Shown here in pieces: positions 4,002 through 25,231 of a stretch of 25,231 bases of DNA; position 1 is the stretch's first letter; each line of letters opens with the position of its first letter. Below the pieces are notes generated by a model. It did no database searches. It worked only from the letters and a program-made list of their open reading frames with translations, and had not been told where the DNA came from. The stretch lies in IMG/VR virus record IMGVR_UViG_3300042731_003566, positions 1 through 25,231 of that record. The stretch is one strand, 5' to 3'. Source of the DNA: a virus. Position numbers and translations under genes: made by a program.

Positions 4002-6796
4002 ACACAAAGGAACAAACCAAAGACATCTATGAAAAGCTCGCTGACATCAACAAGCGGCTGACAGAGAGTCGAGCTGCGGCGTCTGGCTTTCATAATCTTT
4101 TATCATCGAGGCACACGGACACGCTGGCTGCGACACCTTCCCGCGGAGACATCATCACGGCTCAGACAGCGTCGCCGGAATGGCGGGCCTTGACTGTCGG
4201 AGGGGCTGGGACCTATCTTAAATCTGACGGCACGGATGTTTCTTGGGGTCTCCCCACGGGGCCCTTTGAAATTTCGGAAAACTCTCAGACAATCACCCTT
4301 GGACACGACGGGGCTGATGGTTATATTAATTGGGACTTAGGCGAATTAATTCTCCAGACAGAGGTGACAGACTCCTCTACGACCATTGCGGTAAAACCGG
4401 ACGGAACCAGCAATGTCTCCGCTATCGAGCTGTATGATGCGGGGGGGAAAGAGCTGCGGTTATTCACAGAGGCGAATCGTGGGTACATTACGAGTGTTGT
4501 CGGCGATCTAGGGCTGAACCGGAGTGTGAACAAGAATGTTTTATTTTTTGAGAACGCTGCCTCGGGATTCAATCCTTACGTTTACATTTATGGCTACAAG
4601 TCGGCTGTCAGCGTAAAATACGGGCGGCTGCGGGTTGATGCCAACGGAGACTTTTCCGTGGAGGCTGAGTCGGGGGAGGACTTGCTCCTCATCGGCGACA
4701 ACGTCGTTGTAGATGCACCTCTTGGGATAAGAAATCAGAATGAGCTCCGGTTTTATGACAACGGAAATTATGTGGGCTTTGAGGCGCCGGCCCTTTCAGG
4801 GGATCAGATATGGGTTTTGCCAGATCAGGATGGGGCGTCGGATGGGGACGTTTTGGCGACGGATGCAGCTGGAAATCTAAGATGGGATGCCGCCGGCGGA
4901 GGCGGAGCTCCGAGCGATGGTCAGTATCTCGTCCTGGCTTATGAGACGGGCCTGACTGAGGAGAGGCTGGTGACGGAGGGGGCCGGCATAACTCTGACAG
5001 ATGCCGGTGCTGGCAGCACCTTCACTATTGCCTGTGAGTTTCACGAAACCATCGGCACGGAGACCGGGAACCTTTTGACTCAAGGGTCCATCAAGGCGGA
5101 CGAGTGTTGGATAGAGGCGGCATCGACGGGGTACTATTATCGCTTTAGCAGCTCTGATAGCACACCGACAGCGACCCGCGTAGTTGATTGGAAGTTTGGC
5201 GATGACGCAACGAGGACCATTACTATCACAGAAAACTTTACTGTCTCGGGGGGTGCAAGCGTCAGCCTCGATCAATCTTTAAGGCAGCAAGACTCCCCAA
5301 CTTTTGACAATGTAAAATTAAGAGACACGGACAATTCGCATCCGCTTGTTCTCCATCTTCAGGAGGATTTGTCCGCTGAGAGGGACTTGAATTTTTATGT
5401 GGATGACGGCGACAGGTATGTGTATTTCTACGGCAACCTTTCGGTCACAGCGACAAGTTATATCAATCAGGATTTAAGGACGACCTCAACGGTTGCGACG
5501 TTCCAAAATCTTAGATTATGGGATTCAGCTGGACAGGACTATTATATTAATTTCGATATTTCAGAATCATTGACGGGAAACCGAACAGTCTCCTTTTATA
5601 CGGGGGACGCGGCGAGATCATTCCAGCTTGCGGGAAATCTTTATATTACCGGGACAACTTATGCTGATCAGGATTTAAGAACGACAGCCAGCCCTGAGTT
5701 TGATGCCATCCGAATAACAGCTGGAGGAGGGTTTTACCTTGAGCTTGAGGATTCCGAAACTCTCACCGCTAACAGGGCTCTGAATATCGACGTGAACGAC
5801 GGGAACAGGACCATCGATCTAGCTGGGAATTTTTATGTGGAGGCTTTGTCTAGGGTCGACCAGGACTTGACTTCTGATGCTGAGGTTGTGTTTGGCGAGC
5901 TGCGGCTTGGCACAAATTATGCGGTCTCCGGGCTCATGGGAATCCCGAACAACCAAATCGTCTACGGGAGAAACCAAGCCAATTCATCCGACCTTGCCAT
6001 TTTGTCTGTGACAACTGGCGATCTCATAAAGATGGGATCGCAAACATATATAAACCCAGCCTCAGCTGGCAGCCTCGCTGTGGGCGATACAGACACGGAG
6101 CTGATCCTTTCCGCATCGGTCGGGGGCCGCCTGTTAAAAGTAAAGCACACATCCGGGGACGGGAGGCTTGTGGCCGAGGGATCAAGCGGCGCTAACCTTA
6201 ACCTGGTGGACACCGGGGGCGGCACAGATGACAAGTGGTTTCAGATCGATGTCGATGCCGGCGTTGCTCTGTTCCGGCAAGTTGACGATGACGGGGCTGC
6301 CTCGTCTCAGAGCATCATGAGCTGTGATCTAGGGACCGGGGTCATCGATCTCGAGGATCGGATGCCATCGACAGACTCCAGATTTAGGGCATACCTTTCA
6401 GCCGACATGACCTCGATCACATCAGGGTCCTGGACTGCGATCGCTTGCAATACCGAAAACTACGACACCGGAAGCGATTACAACACGACCACATATACTT
6501 ATGTGACGCCAGTTACCGGCGCCTATCTTTGTTTTGCTCAGGCTCGATTTATTCAGACCGCATCCGGCAGCAACTATTATATTGCCATTGAATACAATGG
6601 CACGAACGTCGCTCAGGCTGTCGACGTTGCTGCGGCCAATAACGATCTTTGTCATTGCACGATCGCTGATGTCTATTGGTTTACCTCGGGAATGAATGTG
6701 ATCCTCAAATATTATACGGACGACGCCTCTGGCAATGCGGATATAGACGGGGGAAATCTGAGGACTTTTTGGGGAGTCCATCTTTTGAGTATGTAA
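3998..6796 (+). CDS. Tail fibre / receptor-binding protein with internal repeats and C1q/TNF-like end
   Basis: A 932-residue protein. The N-terminal 80 residues are helical and then carry a GDIITAQTASPEWRAL...LKSDGTDVSW stretch common in phage fibres. The middle has four repeats of 64-67 residues, marked by (D/N)QDLRTT-type turns with codons at 5270, 5465, 5666 and 5858. Each is followed by (E)SLTANRTLxxxVxDGxRxxxLxGNxYV-like strands, expected to build a trimeric shaft. Roughly the last 140 residues form a beta-sandwich with GAYLCFAQARF and FWGVHLLSM strands, like C1q/TNF-type receptor-binding heads. AAGGAG lies about 13 nt before the ATG, which overlaps the previous stop. Placement between the tail-tip gene and the hub gene is unusual, since fibres more often follow the hub. 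Confidence 0.8.
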   Translation: MNTKEQTKDIYEKLADINKRLTESRAAASGFHNLLSSRHTDTLAATPSRGDIITAQTASPEWRALTVGGAGTYLKSDGTDVSWGLPTGPFEISENSQTITLGHDGADGYINWDLGELILQTEVTDSSTTIAVKPDGTSNVSAIELYDAGGKELRLFTEANRGYITSVVGDLGLNRSVNKNVLFFENAASGFNPYVYIYGYKSAVSVKYGRLRVDANGDFSVEAESGEDLLLIGDNVVVDAPLGIRNQNELRFYDNGNYVGFEAPALSGDQIWVLPDQDGASDGDVLATDAAGNLRWDAAGGGGAPSDGQYLVLAYETGLTEERLVTEGAGITLTDAGAGSTFTIACEFHETIGTETGNLLTQGSIKADECWIEAASTGYYYRFSSSDSTPTATRVVDWKFGDDATRTITITENFTVSGGASVSLDQSLRQQDSPTFDNVKLRDTDNSHPLVLHLQEDLSAERDLNFYVDDGDRYVYFYGNLSVTATSYINQDLRTTSTVATFQNLRLWDSAGQDYYINFDISESLTGNRTVSFYTGDAARSFQLAGNLYITGTTYADQDLRTTASPEFDAIRITAGGGFYLELEDSETLTANRALNIDVNDGNRTIDLAGNFYVEALSRVDQDLTSDAEVVFGELRLGTNYAVSGLMGIPNNQIVYGRNQANSSDLAILSVTTGDLIKMGSQTYINPASAGSLAVGDTDTELILSASVGGRLLKVKHTSGDGRLVAEGSSGANLNLVDTGGGTDDKWFQIDVDAGVALFRQVDDDGAASSQSIMSCDLGTGVIDLEDRMPSTDSRFRAYLSADMTSITSGSWTAIACNTENYDTGSDYNTTTYTYVTPVTGAYLCFAQARFIQTASGSNYYIAIEYNGTNVAQAVDVAAANNDLCHCTIADVYWFTSGMNVILKYYTDDASGNADIDGGNLRTFWGVHLLSM
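5270..5920 (+). repeat. Fibre shaft repeats (4 units of 64-67 codons)
   Basis: Four diverged in-frame units within the fibre gene begin at 5270, 5465, 5666 and 5858, spaced 195, 201 and 192 nt. Each opens with an Asp/Asn-Gln-(Asp/Ser)-Leu motif followed by paired beta strands. The second and third openings are nearly identical in DNA (caggatttaagGACGAC versus caggatttaagAACGAC). The last unit is only partly conserved. Such repeats let fibre length change by unequal recombination. Confidence 0.75.
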
Positions 6797-14577: not shown

Positions 14578-15221
14578 TGTTTCCTCCTTGTGCTCGGCTC
14601 ATTTGGGAGTCCAGTTTTCGGATACTGGCCGGCGGCGATCTTCTTTAGAATTTCTTTGCCGCCGCAATCTTCTGTGTCGAAGTATTCGCACGCGGCGCAA
14701 GCCTTGATCCCTCTAAACTGGATCATCCAACAATCACTTGTGAGCTTTGAGCTGTTGATGACTTTCGTCTCGACCTTGCAGCCCAGGTCCCGGGCCAGCC
14801 TTTCGGCTGGCCGGTGCTGGTCCGCTCCACAGTCGCAGAGCTCGCTCATGCCCGCGGGGGCAAATTGCGATCCGCAGTTGATCTCGTTCCAGGGGTCCCC
14901 GGGCTTGACCGTAAACCTTGCGGTCTTGATCACAGCTGCCGGCGGGAGCGCGTCGAAAAAATGGCCGTGGACGTGCCAGCAAGCCGCGCTTATTCGGCGC
15001 CGCTCGCCGTCCTTCCGGCGCTGCCACGAGGCAGAAAACCGGGTGCCCGGTCCCTTTGTCGAATGGACCGACAATCGGAACCACCAGCTCTCACCGCCTC
15101 CTCGGGACTTTCCCTTGTAAACTGGATCAGCGAAAAATTTGATGTTGCCATCAAAGAGCTCGTTGACCTTGTCAAGAGCGATCCGTAAATCGTTCTCAAA
15201 AATGTTTCTGACTATCATCAT
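14574..15221 (-). CDS. Hypothetical cysteine-containing protein of the minus operon, 215 aa
   Basis: The product starts MMIVRNIFENDL. Two tandem ATGs (15221 and 15218) follow GGAGG; the second has the better spacing (4 nt versus 1 nt), so the true protein may be 214 residues. A first domain carries many Trp, Arg and Gly (GGGESWWFRLSVHS), and a RISAACWHVHGHFFDAL segment follows. A C-terminal cysteine set (CAACEYFDTEDCGG, near residues 173-186) looks metal-binding. The function is unknown. The start overlaps the stop of the upstream gene and its stop overlaps the next start. Confidence 0.7.
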   Translation of the reverse strand: MMIVRNIFENDLRIALDKVNELFDGNIKFFADPVYKGKSRGGGESWWFRLSVHSTKGPGTRFSASWQRRKDGERRRISAACWHVHGHFFDALPPAAVIKTARFTVKPGDPWNEINCGSQFAPAGMSELCDCGADQHRPAERLARDLGCKVETKVINSSKLTSDCWMIQFRGIKACAACEYFDTEDCGGKEILKKIAAGQYPKTGLPNEPSTRRKQ

Positions 15222-16368: not shown

Positions 16369-16640
16369 TTGATCCTCCGATTTGGATTTTGGCTTTTAAT
16401 TCTGATATGGGTTTCCGTACTCCTCGCCACGGTTCCACCGCTCGCGGTTTCCTTTCACCTTTATTTCCTGGTCCGCCGTGCTGGAGGTTTAACCTATTCG
16501 CTGGAGTTTAGGAGCTCCGACAATCGGGAGCCGGCGCGGGACCGGCAGCTCGTTTGAGCCGCTGAGTTTCAAAGATCGGAGCCGCCGCCATCCCGGGCGG
16601 CGGTGGGGCCTGGCGGCCGTCCCTGGGGGCGGCCTCCCCA
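16369..16640 (-). promoter_or_regulatory. GC-rich structured leader of the minus operon
   Basis: The minus transcript should start near 16640 and runs about 270 nt before the first gene. It holds GC-rich foldable sequence. The clearest is a hairpin with CCGCCGCC at 16582-16589 pairing with GGCGGCGG at 16596-16603. The block 16605-16639 can form further GC stems near the 5' end. Such a leader is long for a phage early operon and suggests RNA-level control, such as attenuation, protein binding or transcript stability. A 20-codon frame (16396-16458) lies in its 3' part. The fold was not computed. Confidence 0.45.
16396..16458 (-). CDS. Possible 20-aa leader peptide (GTG start)
   Basis: A GTG at 16458 is preceded by AGGA with 7-8 nt spacing and opens a 20-codon frame (MKGNRERWNRGEEYGNPYQN) to a TAA at 16396, 27 nt before the first minus-operon gene. 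Composition is protein-like and hydrophilic. It could be a leader peptide or simply chance. The only support is the ribosome site, location and composition. Confidence 0.3.
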   Translation of the reverse strand: MKGNRERWNRGEEYGNPYQN

Positions 16641-16645
16641 TTATT

Positions 16646-16674
16646 ATTATACCATACTTGTATAGCATTTTCAA
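16646..16674 (-). promoter_or_regulatory. Sigma-70-type promoter of the minus operon
   Basis: On the minus strand TTGAAA (16674-16669) and TATAAT (16651-16646) are separated by exactly 17 nt, with a TGG just before the -10 (extended -10). This is close to the bacterial housekeeping consensus, so the operon should be read by the host polymerase early. Start of transcription is predicted near 16640. Confidence 0.8.
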
Positions 16675-17143: not shown

Positions 17144-17527
17144 ATGGCTGCGAAGGACGGGGGTCAGAAATATAATCGGCTCTTAGACGGCTCCTCACGG
17201 CCGCAAGTGAGGAAATTCAAATACTACAAAAACTGCAAGCTGCCGACGTGCGGCAAGCGGTTCGGAACAAACCGGGAGTGGACTGACTTCTGTCCCGGCA
17301 CAAATCATCAACAGGAATACCACAAACTCCTCAGACGAAAGCACGAGGACGTGATCGTCGAGATCGCAGCGCTCAAGGAAAACGTGATCCGGCTGGCGGA
17401 GATTGTCTCGAAAAATATCGAGCTGATCTCAGCGCTGGCTGACGGCATGAGGGCCACGGGTTTGATCCGTCGGCAGATAGAACAGGCGCGGGAAAGGGCT
17501 AGTGAGACTGCGAACGCAACTAAATGA
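17144..17527 (+). CDS. Zinc-finger/coiled-coil protein, 127 aa
   Basis: GGAG lies 6 nt before the ATG. The N-terminus contains a likely zinc site, Cys31-x4-Cys36-x13-Cys50-x4-His55 (with His60 as alternative), of the FCxxxxxxxxYH kind found in small phage zinc-ribbon proteins. The C-terminal half (residues about 65-120) is a charged amphipathic helix expected to form a coiled coil. The role is unknown; a DNA- or RNA-binding accessory factor fits. It sits between the regulator gene and the putative recombination pair. Confidence 0.65.
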   Translation: MAAKDGGQKYNRLLDGSSRPQVRKFKYYKNCKLPTCGKRFGTNREWTDFCPGTNHQQEYHKLLRRKHEDVIVEIAALKENVIRLAEIVSKNIELISALADGMRATGLIRRQIEQARERASETANATK

Positions 17528-17562
17528 TCTATCCCCGTTTATCGGGTTTAGAAATCCAATAC

Positions 17563-17665
17563 AAGGAGGTTCAGCTCTTTTATTTTTTCTGAGTGATAAG
17601 AAAGGCTGAGGGGCCCGGTAAAGGGCTGCCGGGCCCCGCAAAAAAAAAGAGCTGAGAGAATTATG
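17563..17665 (+). promoter_or_regulatory. Hairpin-bridged ribosome binding site
   Basis: A perfect Shine-Dalgarno sequence (AAGGAGG, 17563-17569) has no start codon in range, while the ATG of the next gene is 93 nt away at 17663. The strand between can fold. TCAGCTCTTTT (17571-17581) pairs with AAAAGAGCTGA (17645-17655) over 11 bp, with four more U-A pairs after one mismatch. Inside lies a GC hairpin, GGGGCCCGG (17610-17618) with CCGGGCCCC (17629-17637). Folded, only T plus GAGAATT separate the SD from the ATG, 8 nt. The only other SD-like sequence is a weak GAG. T4 genes 38 and 25 are known to use such a fold. Confidence 0.65.
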
Positions 17666-18634
17666 ACAAATAAGAAAAAGGAAGATGCCATCGCGCTCAG
17701 GGCTGACTTTGGCGCTGTTTATCTAAAGACATACCAGGGCCAGCTCATGAGGCCGGTGCGATCGAAGATGACCTTAAAGGATAAGCGCGGCCACTTTTAC
17801 ACGGTCAAGGGAAAGACCGCGATCTCGAGTCAGGGCTATCGCCACGTCAACAAGGTTGCGTCTATCTCGATCGTCACCCCCACTCACGTCGTTGTCGACG
17901 GGAACAAGATGCCGAATCCGATGATCGAGCGGAGCGGAATGACGAAGTTTGTCGAGGCTGTGGCGATCAGGAAGATCGGGATCGGATTCTCTCCGATCGG
18001 AAACCTGGTCGTGATCGACAAGACTTTGTTCTATAACGTGCACACCTATTTGATCCAGAGTCTCCAGGCAAAAATGAAAAAGGATACCAGGAAAAACAAG
18101 TGCGCCGTCCTCGGCACTCAAGACGACAAACCGAAAGAGCCAAAGGATGCAAAATGGATTTTCTTCGAGATGACAGAGACCGGCGGGATCAAGCTGGGGA
18201 TTTGGGCCAACTATGCCGACGCCTTGATCGTAGATGTGATCGAGGAGCACACGCAGCGGCAGAAGTTTGGGGACCGGATCGCTCAGTCGATCGTTGAAAG
18301 GAATATCCTACGGGATCATCCCGCGATCGCTGTCTCTCAGGTTGACGTTGATCAGAGGACCGGCCAGGCGCAAGTCGACGTCTACGGCTGGAGAAATGAG
18401 ATGGGGCCCGAAGATTTTCAACAGGTCCTCCAGCAAGCCGAGCGCGGAGCGCAAGAGCTGGAGATCAAGAAAGAGGAGATCAAGGTTGTCCCCGAGGAAG
18501 AAGAAAAGGAAGTGATCGAGGCTGAGGCCGTGGCTGACCAAGAGGCGCCGGCCGAGCCCGACGTTGACGGCTCCCTGTTTGCCGAGCCGCCAGATGAAAG
18601 GGAGGAAACTACTGATGCCAGCAAAAAGCGATGA
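17663..18634 (+). CDS. Putative DNA recombination protein (single-strand annealing type)
   Basis: A 323-residue protein. Residues 1-120 are basic and beta-rich (TAISSQGYRHVNKVASISIV). The middle has GIGFSPIGNLVVIDKTLFYNV followed by helices and a basic EEHTQRQKFGDRIAQSIVERNILRDHPAIA segment that resembles the RecT/annealing style of helix. The last ~70 residues are strongly acidic, as in many phage single-strand-binding or annealing partners. The neighbour gene encodes a Cas4/RecB-like nuclease, a common pairing, and this supports the call. I do not recognise the exact family. Its ribosome site is the hairpin-bridged element upstream. The next gene starts inside its last codons. Confidence 0.45.
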   Translation: MTNKKKEDAIALRADFGAVYLKTYQGQLMRPVRSKMTLKDKRGHFYTVKGKTAISSQGYRHVNKVASISIVTPTHVVVDGNKMPNPMIERSGMTKFVEAVAIRKIGIGFSPIGNLVVIDKTLFYNVHTYLIQSLQAKMKKDTRKNKCAVLGTQDDKPKEPKDAKWIFFEMTETGGIKLGIWANYADALIVDVIEEHTQRQKFGDRIAQSIVERNILRDHPAIAVSQVDVDQRTGQAQVDVYGWRNEMGPEDFQQVLQQAERGAQELEIKKEEIKVVPEEEEKEVIEAEAVADQEAPAEPDVDGSLFAEPPDEREETTDASKKR

Positions 18635-19625
18635 ACAGGTCGTAAAAACTCTAAAAGAATTGTCGGACCTGGTCACGGTTAGTTTGGATTCGACCATGCA
18701 GATCGAGGCCGAAAAAAAGTCCGGCTACTCCTCGACCAGGGCTGATTGGAATTATGCCAGCGAGATCGGACATCCCTGTGATCGAAATCTCGTTTATGCC
18801 AGGACCAGGTATAAAGAGCGCCGGCCTAAAGACATCAGCTCTCTTTATCGGTTCCGGGAGGGAAACAAACAAGAGGACGATATCGTCATGCTCCTGATGG
18901 CGGCTGGGCACAAGCTGAGGCTCCAGCAAATGTCTGTGGAGTGGGAGAAGTTTTTTGTCAGGGGGCGGATCGACGGGGCCTTTTATTTCCAGGGTGCCGA
19001 GTGGCCGGCTGAGGTCAAGAGCATCAGCCCTTGGTATTGGGAAACGACTCGAGACCTGGATTCGATTACGGCTCACCCTAAGTTTTGGATCAACAAGATT
19101 CCTTGCCAGCTCTGTATGTACTGCCTTATGGAAGATAAGCCAGGCGGGGTTTTGATCTTAAAAACTTTTGGCCAGCGGCCGCGGATCATCCCGGCGCCTG
19201 TGGACTATGAGCTTGGAGAGCGATGTATCAAGCAAGCCGAGCGAGTGAATGAGCACGTTGCCGCCGGCACTTTGCCCGACCGCATCGTGTACGATCCATC
19301 GGTCTGCAACCTCTGTGACTTCGATCAAATCTGTCAGCCTGTCACCGTTGCGAATATCAGCGACGTGACTGACGCGCAGCTCAAGCTGATCCGGGAATAC
19401 ATCGCACTCGAGGGCGCCTACCGGGAGCGAGAGAGGCTAAAAAAACAGCTGATCGGTAGCTCGAAAAAGCCCGGGGTTTTCCACGGCAAGAACGCGCTGG
19501 TCGAGGACATCCAGATTGTCTCGAGAGAATCAGATCAGACGTACTATGATGTCCCGGATAAGATCAAAAAGAAATATAAAAAGATTCGCAAGATCATCAA
19601 GACCTCGATCGGGATGGCGGGATGA
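18615..19625 (+). CDS. Cas4/RecB-like PD-(D/E)XK nuclease with likely 4Fe-4S cluster
   Basis: A 336-residue protein with the PD-(D/E)XK signature: Asp120 in RGRIDG, Glu133 and Lys135 in AEVKS, and Gln165/Tyr169 in the QxxxY helix. Cys55 (in IGHPC) plus Cys231, Cys234 and Cys240 (SVCNLCDFDQIC) match the four-cysteine arrangement that binds an iron-sulphur cluster in Cas4 and AddB-type nucleases. It probably resects or trims DNA for recombination with the upstream protein. The start at 18615 is set by GGGAGG (18600-18605) at 9 nt, overlapping the previous gene by 20 nt; the longer frame from 18564 has no support. The C-terminal helix is Lys-rich. Confidence 0.8.
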   Translation: MPAKSDEQVVKTLKELSDLVTVSLDSTMQIEAEKKSGYSSTRADWNYASEIGHPCDRNLVYARTRYKERRPKDISSLYRFREGNKQEDDIVMLLMAAGHKLRLQQMSVEWEKFFVRGRIDGAFYFQGAEWPAEVKSISPWYWETTRDLDSITAHPKFWINKIPCQLCMYCLMEDKPGGVLILKTFGQRPRIIPAPVDYELGERCIKQAERVNEHVAAGTLPDRIVYDPSVCNLCDFDQICQPVTVANISDVTDAQLKLIREYIALEGAYRERERLKKQLIGSSKKPGVFHGKNALVEDIQIVSRESDQTYYDVPDKIKKKYKKIRKIIKTSIGMAG

Positions 19626-24159: not shown

Positions 24160-24662
24160 AGGTTTTACCGCACCTGAATGAGGCCGAGCGCCAGGCGATT
24201 AATTATCTAATCAAGAGCCGAGAGAGGTATGACAAGAAAAAACACGAGAAGATGGCCTTTGAGGCGATGGCGCTGGGGGGGTTTACGGATACCGAGATGC
24301 TGCTCCACGGGACGGCTGCCGAGATTGCTTTTTGCAAGTGGCAAAATATTTATCCGAACCTGGAGACAAGAAGGTTTAGGACCCCGGACTTTGTAAAAGA
24401 GCACGGGCCCTTAAAGCTGACCGGCGAGGTCAAGCATACGATCCGGGTCGATGGAAACCTCCTGGTGCCACACTGGAAAAATCCAAGCAAGTATGACATA
24501 TATGTTTTAGTGACCGGCCGGATGCCGCAGCTGTGCTATGTCGGCTGGATCGGAGGAGAGGAAGTTTTCAAAGAGGAGCGGATCGAAAAGGGAAAGTACG
24601 GGAAATCATATTATTTTATCAGCCGCTTTGAGCTGGAGGAGATTTTACCTTGGGAGAAATAG
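24156..24662 (+). CDS. PD-(D/E)XK-type endonuclease-like protein, 168 aa
   Basis: The ATG overlaps the previous stop (ATGA). The core has an acidic residue in GTAAEIAFCKW (Glu56), Asp78 in RTPDF, and Glu91-x-Lys93 in GEVKHT, followed by strand KYDIYVLV and CYVGWIGG, the layout of restriction-endonuclease-like nucleases. A helical N-terminus (1-50) precedes it. Such proteins in phages may be VSR- or Holliday-type nucleases, but the substrate is not known. Composition returns to that of the main genome. The next gene begins inside its last codons. Confidence 0.65.
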   Translation: MKVLPHLNEAERQAINYLIKSRERYDKKKHEKMAFEAMALGGFTDTEMLLHGTAAEIAFCKWQNIYPNLETRRFRTPDFVKEHGPLKLTGEVKHTIRVDGNLLVPHWKNPSKYDIYVLVTGRMPQLCYVGWIGGEEVFKEERIEKGKYGKSYYFISRFELEEILPWEK

Positions 24663-25231
24663 CGGGAGCGAAAAAAGCGCTGGCACTAATGGCGATGGCC
24701 GCATGGCTGGCCGTATGCGCGGCCGCAGAGATTCCGGCCGAGGACGGCGATCCCATAGTTTATAAAATAGCGAACGGACACGAGCTCAAGCTCCACGTTT
24801 ACAAGCATTATAAAGCAAAGCCTGGAGACAAAAGGATCGGGATTGTATTTTTTAACGGCGGAGCCTGGCAGCGAGGATGGTGGGCGCAGTTTTCTTTTCA
24901 TGCAAATTATCTGTCCAGGCACGGCTATGTTTGTATCTGTGCTGAGTACAGGGTTTACGAAACTCATGGGACGACGCCGTTTGATGCGGTGGAAGATGCG
25001 AAAGATGCAATGCGCTTTGTGAGGGAAAACAGCTACGATCTCGGGATCGATCCAAGCAAGATTCTAGCGGCCGGGTCATCGGCCGGCGGTCACTTGGCGG
25101 CCTGTACCGAGCTAGTCGGCGATCCCGGCATAAATAGCTGCCGGCCAAATGGGCTGATTTTATACAATGCAGTTTTGAGCTGCGATCCGATCGGAGGATT
25201 TGGGGGCGACTACATCGGAGAGGATTGGCCA
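24650..25231 (+). CDS. Secreted alpha/beta-hydrolase (esterase), 5' part only
   Basis: A frame from TTG 24650, 10 nt after GGAGG (24635-24639), runs off the window; 194 codons are visible. The start is MGEIAGAKK, then a hydrophobic core (ALALMAMAAWLAVCAA) ending in AAA-EI, a clear signal peptide. The mature part has FNGGAWQRGW, the oxyanion HGGGW-type loop with His replaced by Asn, and GSSAGGHLAA with Ser144 as predicted nucleophile. This resembles the esterase_lipase/acetyl-xylan-type family that removes ester groups from polysaccharides. The Asp and His of the triad lie beyond the window. It is unusual in a phage early region. Confidence 0.7.
   Translation, partial: MGEIAGAKKALALMAMAAWLAVCAAAEIPAEDGDPIVYKIANGHELKLHVYKHYKAKPGDKRIGIVFFNGGAWQRGWWAQFSFHANYLSRHGYVCICAEYRVYETHGTTPFDAVEDAKDAMRFVRENSYDLGIDPSKILAAGSSAGGHLAACTELVGDPGINSCRPNGLILYNAVLSCDPIGGFGGDYIGEDWP

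Follow-up and report, generated by a model that had tools for sequence, protein, structure and literature searches.

Natural examples of a folded RNA that brings a distant Shine-Dalgarno (SD) sequence to a start codon are few, and they come mainly from bacteriophage T4. The closest described systems include two genes of bacteriophage T4, for which the literature gives a shortening of the SD–AUG spacing from 22 to 5 nt (gene 38) and from 27 to 11 nt (gene 25) (PMC3014915). The gene 25 element occurs in close T-even phages only and is absent from distant relatives (PMC3014915). In the Escherichia coli thrS message, the ribosome binding site contains a hairpin domain, which is reported to be accommodated in its folded state (PMC3936740). 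Modelling of the gene start described here points, with good probability, to a site of this type: a split ("accommodated") ribosome binding site whose insert is branched and unusually large, located at the probable annealing gene of an uncultured phage.

The window, that is, the whole stretch of 25,231 bases that was analysed, comes from an IMG/VR virus record, and the region of interest is the 135-nt gap between two of its genes (Table 1). The AAGGAGG of this gap is the single copy on the + strand of the whole window; the window scan found a second one on the − strand, at 14589, where it precedes a gene. No ATG, GTG or TTG is present in the sequence at usable distance from the AAGGAGG at 17563–17569, which occupies positions −94 to −100 relative to ATG 17663, with a linear gap of 93 nt. 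The local site of this ATG consists of GAG only; it pairs with the anti-SD at about −3.0 kcal/mol, whereas the distal site does so at −12.1 kcal/mol. A strong SD lacking a start codon at usable distance, and a start codon with only a weak GAG, had both been pointed out in an earlier reading made from the sequence alone (hereafter, the sequence-only reading), and both are borne out. Its statement that nearly all neighbouring genes have a GGAG site was overstated, since several nearby starts are weak (for example, 6798 and 21100).

Judged by comparison with the relatives, ATG 17663 is the real start codon; the N-termini specified from it and from the start of relative L007 align without a gap, and relative L006 keeps ATGACAAACAA at the place that matches the window start. 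For the Cas4-like gene, the first listed start, TTG 18564, is probably wrong. A 22-codon open reading frame (MIYPRLSGLEIQYKEVQLFYFF; 17524–17592, + strand), whose start overlaps the stop of the 127-aa gene as ATGA, extends across the distal SD and the adjoining 5' arm. This frame has a weak SD of its own (−2.7 kcal/mol), and its translation, if it occurs, would disturb the bridging fold.

Table 1. Window coordinates of the genes and RNA elements at the start of the annealing gene (MFE, minimum-energy).
Feature	Position	Strand	Basis
Upstream gene, 127 aa, Cys/His-containing	17144..17527	+	L006 homologue at equivalent place
Distal Shine-Dalgarno AAGGAGG	17563..17569	+	Sequence; -12.1 kcal/mol to ACCUCCUUA
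Outer (bridging) stem, 5' arm, contiguous with the SD	17570..17581	+	MFE fold; mean pair probability 0.97 at 37 C
Inner AU-rich hairpin	17584..17605	+	MFE fold; about -3.6 kcal/mol
Inner GC hairpin, 11 bp, 6-nt loop	17610..17637	+	MFE fold; -25.6 kcal/mol
Outer (bridging) stem, 3' arm	17645..17656	+	MFE fold; inverted repeat I1, 16 nt at 94%
Effective spacer from folded element to ATG, 6 nt (total 8 with U-G open)	17657..17662	+	Fold
Single-strand annealing protein gene (probable), 323 aa	17663..18634	+	Relatives; PHROG 32428; AlphaFold model
Cas4-like exonuclease gene, 3' of the annealing gene	18564..19625	+	PHROG 1990; neighbour in nearly all relatives

The minimum-energy fold of 17540–17680 has −47.8 kcal/mol (z −4.76; 0 of 200 dinucleotide shuffles as low) and contains exactly the 11 pairs that had been proposed between 17571–17581 and 17645–17655. 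The outer stem as folded (17570–17581/17645–17656) consists of 11 Watson–Crick pairs and one U–G pair (17570/17656), and closes an 87-nt branched domain, 17570–17656, made of the AU hairpin, a two-pair helix and the GC hairpin. The strong GC hairpin supposed to lie inside the stem is there, although the interior is a three-way branch and not a single nested hairpin. Likewise, the distance of exactly 8 nt between SD and ATG claimed by the sequence-only reading holds with 11 pairs, and becomes 6 nt if the U–G makes 12. Among the structures sampled, 56% have an unpaired SD–AUG path of 6 nt, 38% one of 8 nt and 5% one of 10 nt, compared with 93 nt in the linear sequence, and the path is computed to fall within 6–10 nt in about 98% of them. 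In a 220-nt context the distal SD has an unpaired probability of 0.61, with part of it base-paired in some structures of the ensemble. The mean pair probability of the outer stem is 0.97 at 37 °C and still 0.90 at 65 °C, which leaves the suggested dependence on temperature unsupported. An RNA thermometer was likewise considered and rejected, as the SD lies mostly outside helices and the outer stem is paired at 65 °C.

The two T4 genes, which had been put forward as precedents, were both recovered by the pipeline as positive controls. The identical computation brings the spacing of gene 38 from 22 to 6 nt and that of gene 25 from 27 to 9 nt along the main path, and gives a local site of −2.2 kcal/mol for each. 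When the SD and the ATG were kept fixed and the intervening 93 nt dinucleotide-shuffled, a perfect Watson–Crick stem of at least 11 bp in the bridging register arose in 2 of 20,000 shuffles. A stricter ensemble test, in which SD and AUG had also to be unpaired, gave 0.46 for the window and a mean of 0.014 for the shuffles, 2 of 1000 of which reached 0.5. Start codons were also surveyed on both strands of the window and of all distinct fetched loci (24,105 starts in 284 kb), and six had a strong SD abutting a bridging stem of at least 9 pairs. The window gene has the longest of these stems (12 pairs) and the only one above 10 pairs, and among the bridged cases of the survey only this one was seen at a conserved gene's start. 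The stem counts in shuffles and the start-codon survey, together with the pattern among relatives, therefore make it unlikely that the bridge arose by chance.

Relatives of the annealing gene were collected on IMG/VR with a 60-aa fragment and then with alignments, full-length single-protein scans with the annealing and Cas4-like products having found none. The resulting set holds 42 gene copies, 40 from IMG/VR contigs with a readable gene start and two from genome contigs (Clostridiales and Candidatus Aminicenantes); several of them form near-identical pairs, and their identity to the window protein is about 28–58%. In each of the 38 scored relatives a local site at normal distance scores between −5.4 and −12.9 kcal/mol, its sequence being AAGGAG or AAGGAGG in most of them, and the window, at −3.0 kcal/mol, is the sole outlier against them. 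The sites of L056 and L057 are GG-rich and not a clean AAGGAG, the start of L032 was reassigned by hand to 2507, and four further relatives, L071–L074, read by eye, carry TGGAGGTCA or AAGGAG(G) at normal distance. The bridge is found in 0 of the 42 copies. Thus, among the window and its 42 relatives, the only copy that lacks a local SD is the only one that has a bridge. The sequence-only reading had held that it would be contradicted by relatives in which the gene persists without the outer stem. This is literally what is seen, yet each of these relatives has an SD-like site at ordinary distance, so that absence of the stem marks a lineage-specific arrangement and is not a refutation. For the same reason there is no covariation of the outer stem to be read, the element being absent in all relatives, the closest of which has 58% protein identity.

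Searches beyond this set were also carried out. INPHARED phages gave no match to the region or the gene by megablast or tblastn, and a search with the upstream gene returned only the contig of L006 again. L002 (Hydrogenobaculum phage 1) and L003 (Manatee Spring phage) have Cas4-like genes, and none of their upstream genes that were tried matches PHROG 32428. The leaders of some relatives hold structures of their own. In L023 (about 2860–2935), L014, L020, L030 and L035, a long stem whose end immediately precedes the SD contains a minus-strand TTGACA box, accompanied in L023 by TATAAT, which suggests a divergent promoter or operator in these leaders. L006 has a GC hairpin at 4604–4655, in the corresponding gap, whose loop holds TAAGGAGG and a short GTG frame, and in L005 a perfect 9-bp hairpin, an SD and a very short frame come in that order ahead of the gene's own SD.

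What distinguishes a split site is found at this gene start: an SD at nonfunctional linear distance, ending 93 nt before the ATG; an intervening structure that, by computation, restores a spacing of 6–10 nt; and a start free of a competing SD nearby (−3.0 kcal/mol in the window, −2.2 in the T4 genes). The proposed mechanism is that the 87-nt domain 17570–17656, with its 12-bp closing stem firmed by the GC hairpin, would fold between SD and AUG. The 30S subunit would then meet an SD–AUG spacing of about 6–8 nt, pair with AAGGAGG and set AUG 17663 in the P site, while the folded domain would bulge out of the 30S-bound message. The central proposal of the sequence-only reading, that a hairpin brings a distant SD to the start, gains support from the folding, the chance controls, the T4 positive controls and the relatives. 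Use of the bridged site by the ribosome is what we infer, as distinct from the computed fold and spacing, the missing usable local SD, the start codon and the linear SDs of the relatives.

Comparison with L006, a relative that has the same upstream gene, bears on the origin of the domain. It reads CAAGGAGGACGAATGACAAACAA where the window has CAAGGAGG, 87 nt and AGAATTATGACAAATAA; its leader ends in CTCAAGGAGGACGAATGACAAACAAAG, and that of the window in TACAAGGAGG, 87 nt and then AGAATTATGACAAATAAG. From the aligned leaders, the domain looks like a palindromic insert between the ancestral SD and the start, and we infer that it was probably gained within the window's lineage. Another possible origin is that an SD was lost after the stem (CTGAGAGAATTATG) and reliance shifted to the SD in front of it, since in many relatives (L005, L007, L014, L020, L030 and L035) the SD comes immediately after a long stem. 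No Rfam family reached its gathering score with the element, the best being gyrA RNA with 17.6 bits against the 45 required.

Instead of being permanently bridged, the leader might work as a switch. Folds of the growing chain pass from AAGGAG/CUCUUU (−5.0 kcal/mol) to pairing of the 5' arm with 17602–17609, and to the bridge once the 3' arm is present. The near direct repeats 17602–17611 (AAAGGCTGAG) and 17647–17656 (AAGAGCTGAG) give the 5' arm two possible partners, the nearer of which yields a competing local hairpin. The 5' arm would then pair with the SD, next with 17602–17609 and finally with the 3' arm, the SD staying hidden or distant until the leader's last bases, and a protein may hold one of the states. 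This course of events is unlikely. Forbidding the pairing of the arms does leave an alternative fold, about 5 kcal/mol higher, but the bridged state is ahead by that amount at equilibrium, and therefore a stable second state is not predicted. Furthermore, the SD hairpin is partly explained by the resemblance of the 3' arm (AAGAG) to an SD, the element has neither a known ligand nor a known binding protein, and no relative keeps it. It is quite doubtful that this domain of 87 nt acts as a switch timed by folding or controlled by a protein, in which the SD, at first concealed in a hairpin of its own, is both freed and moved to the AUG upon appearance of the 3' arm or by a factor binding the GC hairpin; if true, it would mean on/off control of phage recombination through the SD–AUG distance and not through hiding of the site.

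It is also rather improbable that AAGGAGG is idle, with initiation at 17663 being independent of an SD or relying on the weak GAG in an A-rich, open start, and with the hairpin serving another end, such as protection of the mRNA. The sequence around ATG 17663 is indeed A-rich, and weakly structured after the ATG; several other window genes have weak sites as well, and in E. coli initiation is reported to take place at the correct sites without mRNA–rRNA pairing (PMC7043885). However, every scored relative keeps an SD-like site at ordinary distance, from which it follows that this gene normally relies on an SD, and a strong SD is unlikely to stand by chance exactly at one end of a stem that has its other end 6 nt from the ATG. 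That restored SD spacing also counts against the element being an attenuator or terminator, or else a DNA inverted repeat (operator, cruciform or small mobile element) whose place is incidental, which is very improbable in spite of the palindromic arms (16 nt at 94%) and of a T-rich run at 17578–17588 after a weak AAGGAG/CTCTTT stem. The scan gave no terminator-like site at 17540–17660 on either strand, and the flanking genes are all on the + strand. An intrinsic terminator or attenuator at the GC hairpin was rejected, the hairpin being followed on the + strand by A9 and not by a U run. Further copies of the element were sought by blastn in INPHARED phages and PLSDB plasmids, where only chance-level matches of 20–28 nt appeared, and by an exact-arm pattern in IMG/VR, where there were none.

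The product of 17663–18634 matches PHROG 32428, a family of unknown function, with an E value of 8e-49, and its AlphaFold model, built with 24 sequences, has a mean pLDDT of 76. Foldseek gave no significant match for this model, and a PDB sequence search with the gene product returned chance matches only. With VIA-align, human Rad52 and yeast Mgm101 fill the first seven places (Z 5.4–6.1, over 105–130 residues, rmsd 4.5–5.6), while RecT of phage A118 has Z 3.7 and unrelated rows reach Z 4.6 at most, values below 8 being middling. The Cas4-like exonuclease gene adjoins the annealing gene in nearly all relatives. The model and this neighbour point to the product, and PHROG 32428 with it, as probably an annealing protein of Rad52/RecT fold partnered with the Cas4-like exonuclease; calling the gene a putative annealing gene, as had been done, was reasonable given the Cas4-like neighbour, with fold evidence that is middling. 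Elsewhere in the window, a long-range inverted repeat (19934–19948/20018–20032, 15 nt, 87%) ends 16 nt before GTG 20049, the start of a DnaD-like replication gene that has its own SD. At 16624–16650 (+ strand) a GC hairpin, TGGGGGCGGCCTCCCCA, is followed by TTATTATTATT, a terminator-like site in a divergent region, and at 24650–25231 (+ strand) an alpha/beta-hydrolase (esterase-like) frame, an unusual cargo among early phage genes, runs off the window end.

The case has consequences beyond this virus, as gene finders that use the local SD only will score such starts as weak. It also provides a compact system for testing what size of folded domain the 30S subunit accepts between SD and AUG, and since the relatives show the ordinary state, one can study how a split site is gained. 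As in T4 gene 38, an AAGGAG abuts a stable hairpin that shortens the SD–AUG spacing, and the local SD is negligible; the T4 structure is a single tetraloop hairpin of 16–20 nt, whereas that of the window is branched, has 87 nt and takes the spacing from 93 to 6–8 nt, and both the phage and the gene are unrelated. With T4 gene 25 the window shares a structure between SD and AUG, as well as the phylogenetic pattern, the element being absent in distant relatives. Gene 25 differs in its short single hairpin, its weaker SD and its translationally adjoining gene 26, and its structure has been proven by mutation, reporter and DMS probing (PMC3014915), whereas that of the window is predicted by computation. 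E. coli thrS likewise has a folded domain inside its ribosome binding site; that domain parts an upstream unpaired standby region from the SD–AUG segment and is a known operator for threonyl-tRNA synthetase, while the window hairpin lies between SD and AUG and has no known binding protein. The proposed mechanism is of a known kind, extended here to an unrelated phage group and to 93 bridged nucleotides in place of the 22–27 of T4, and what sets it apart is an intervening domain that is unusually large and branched.
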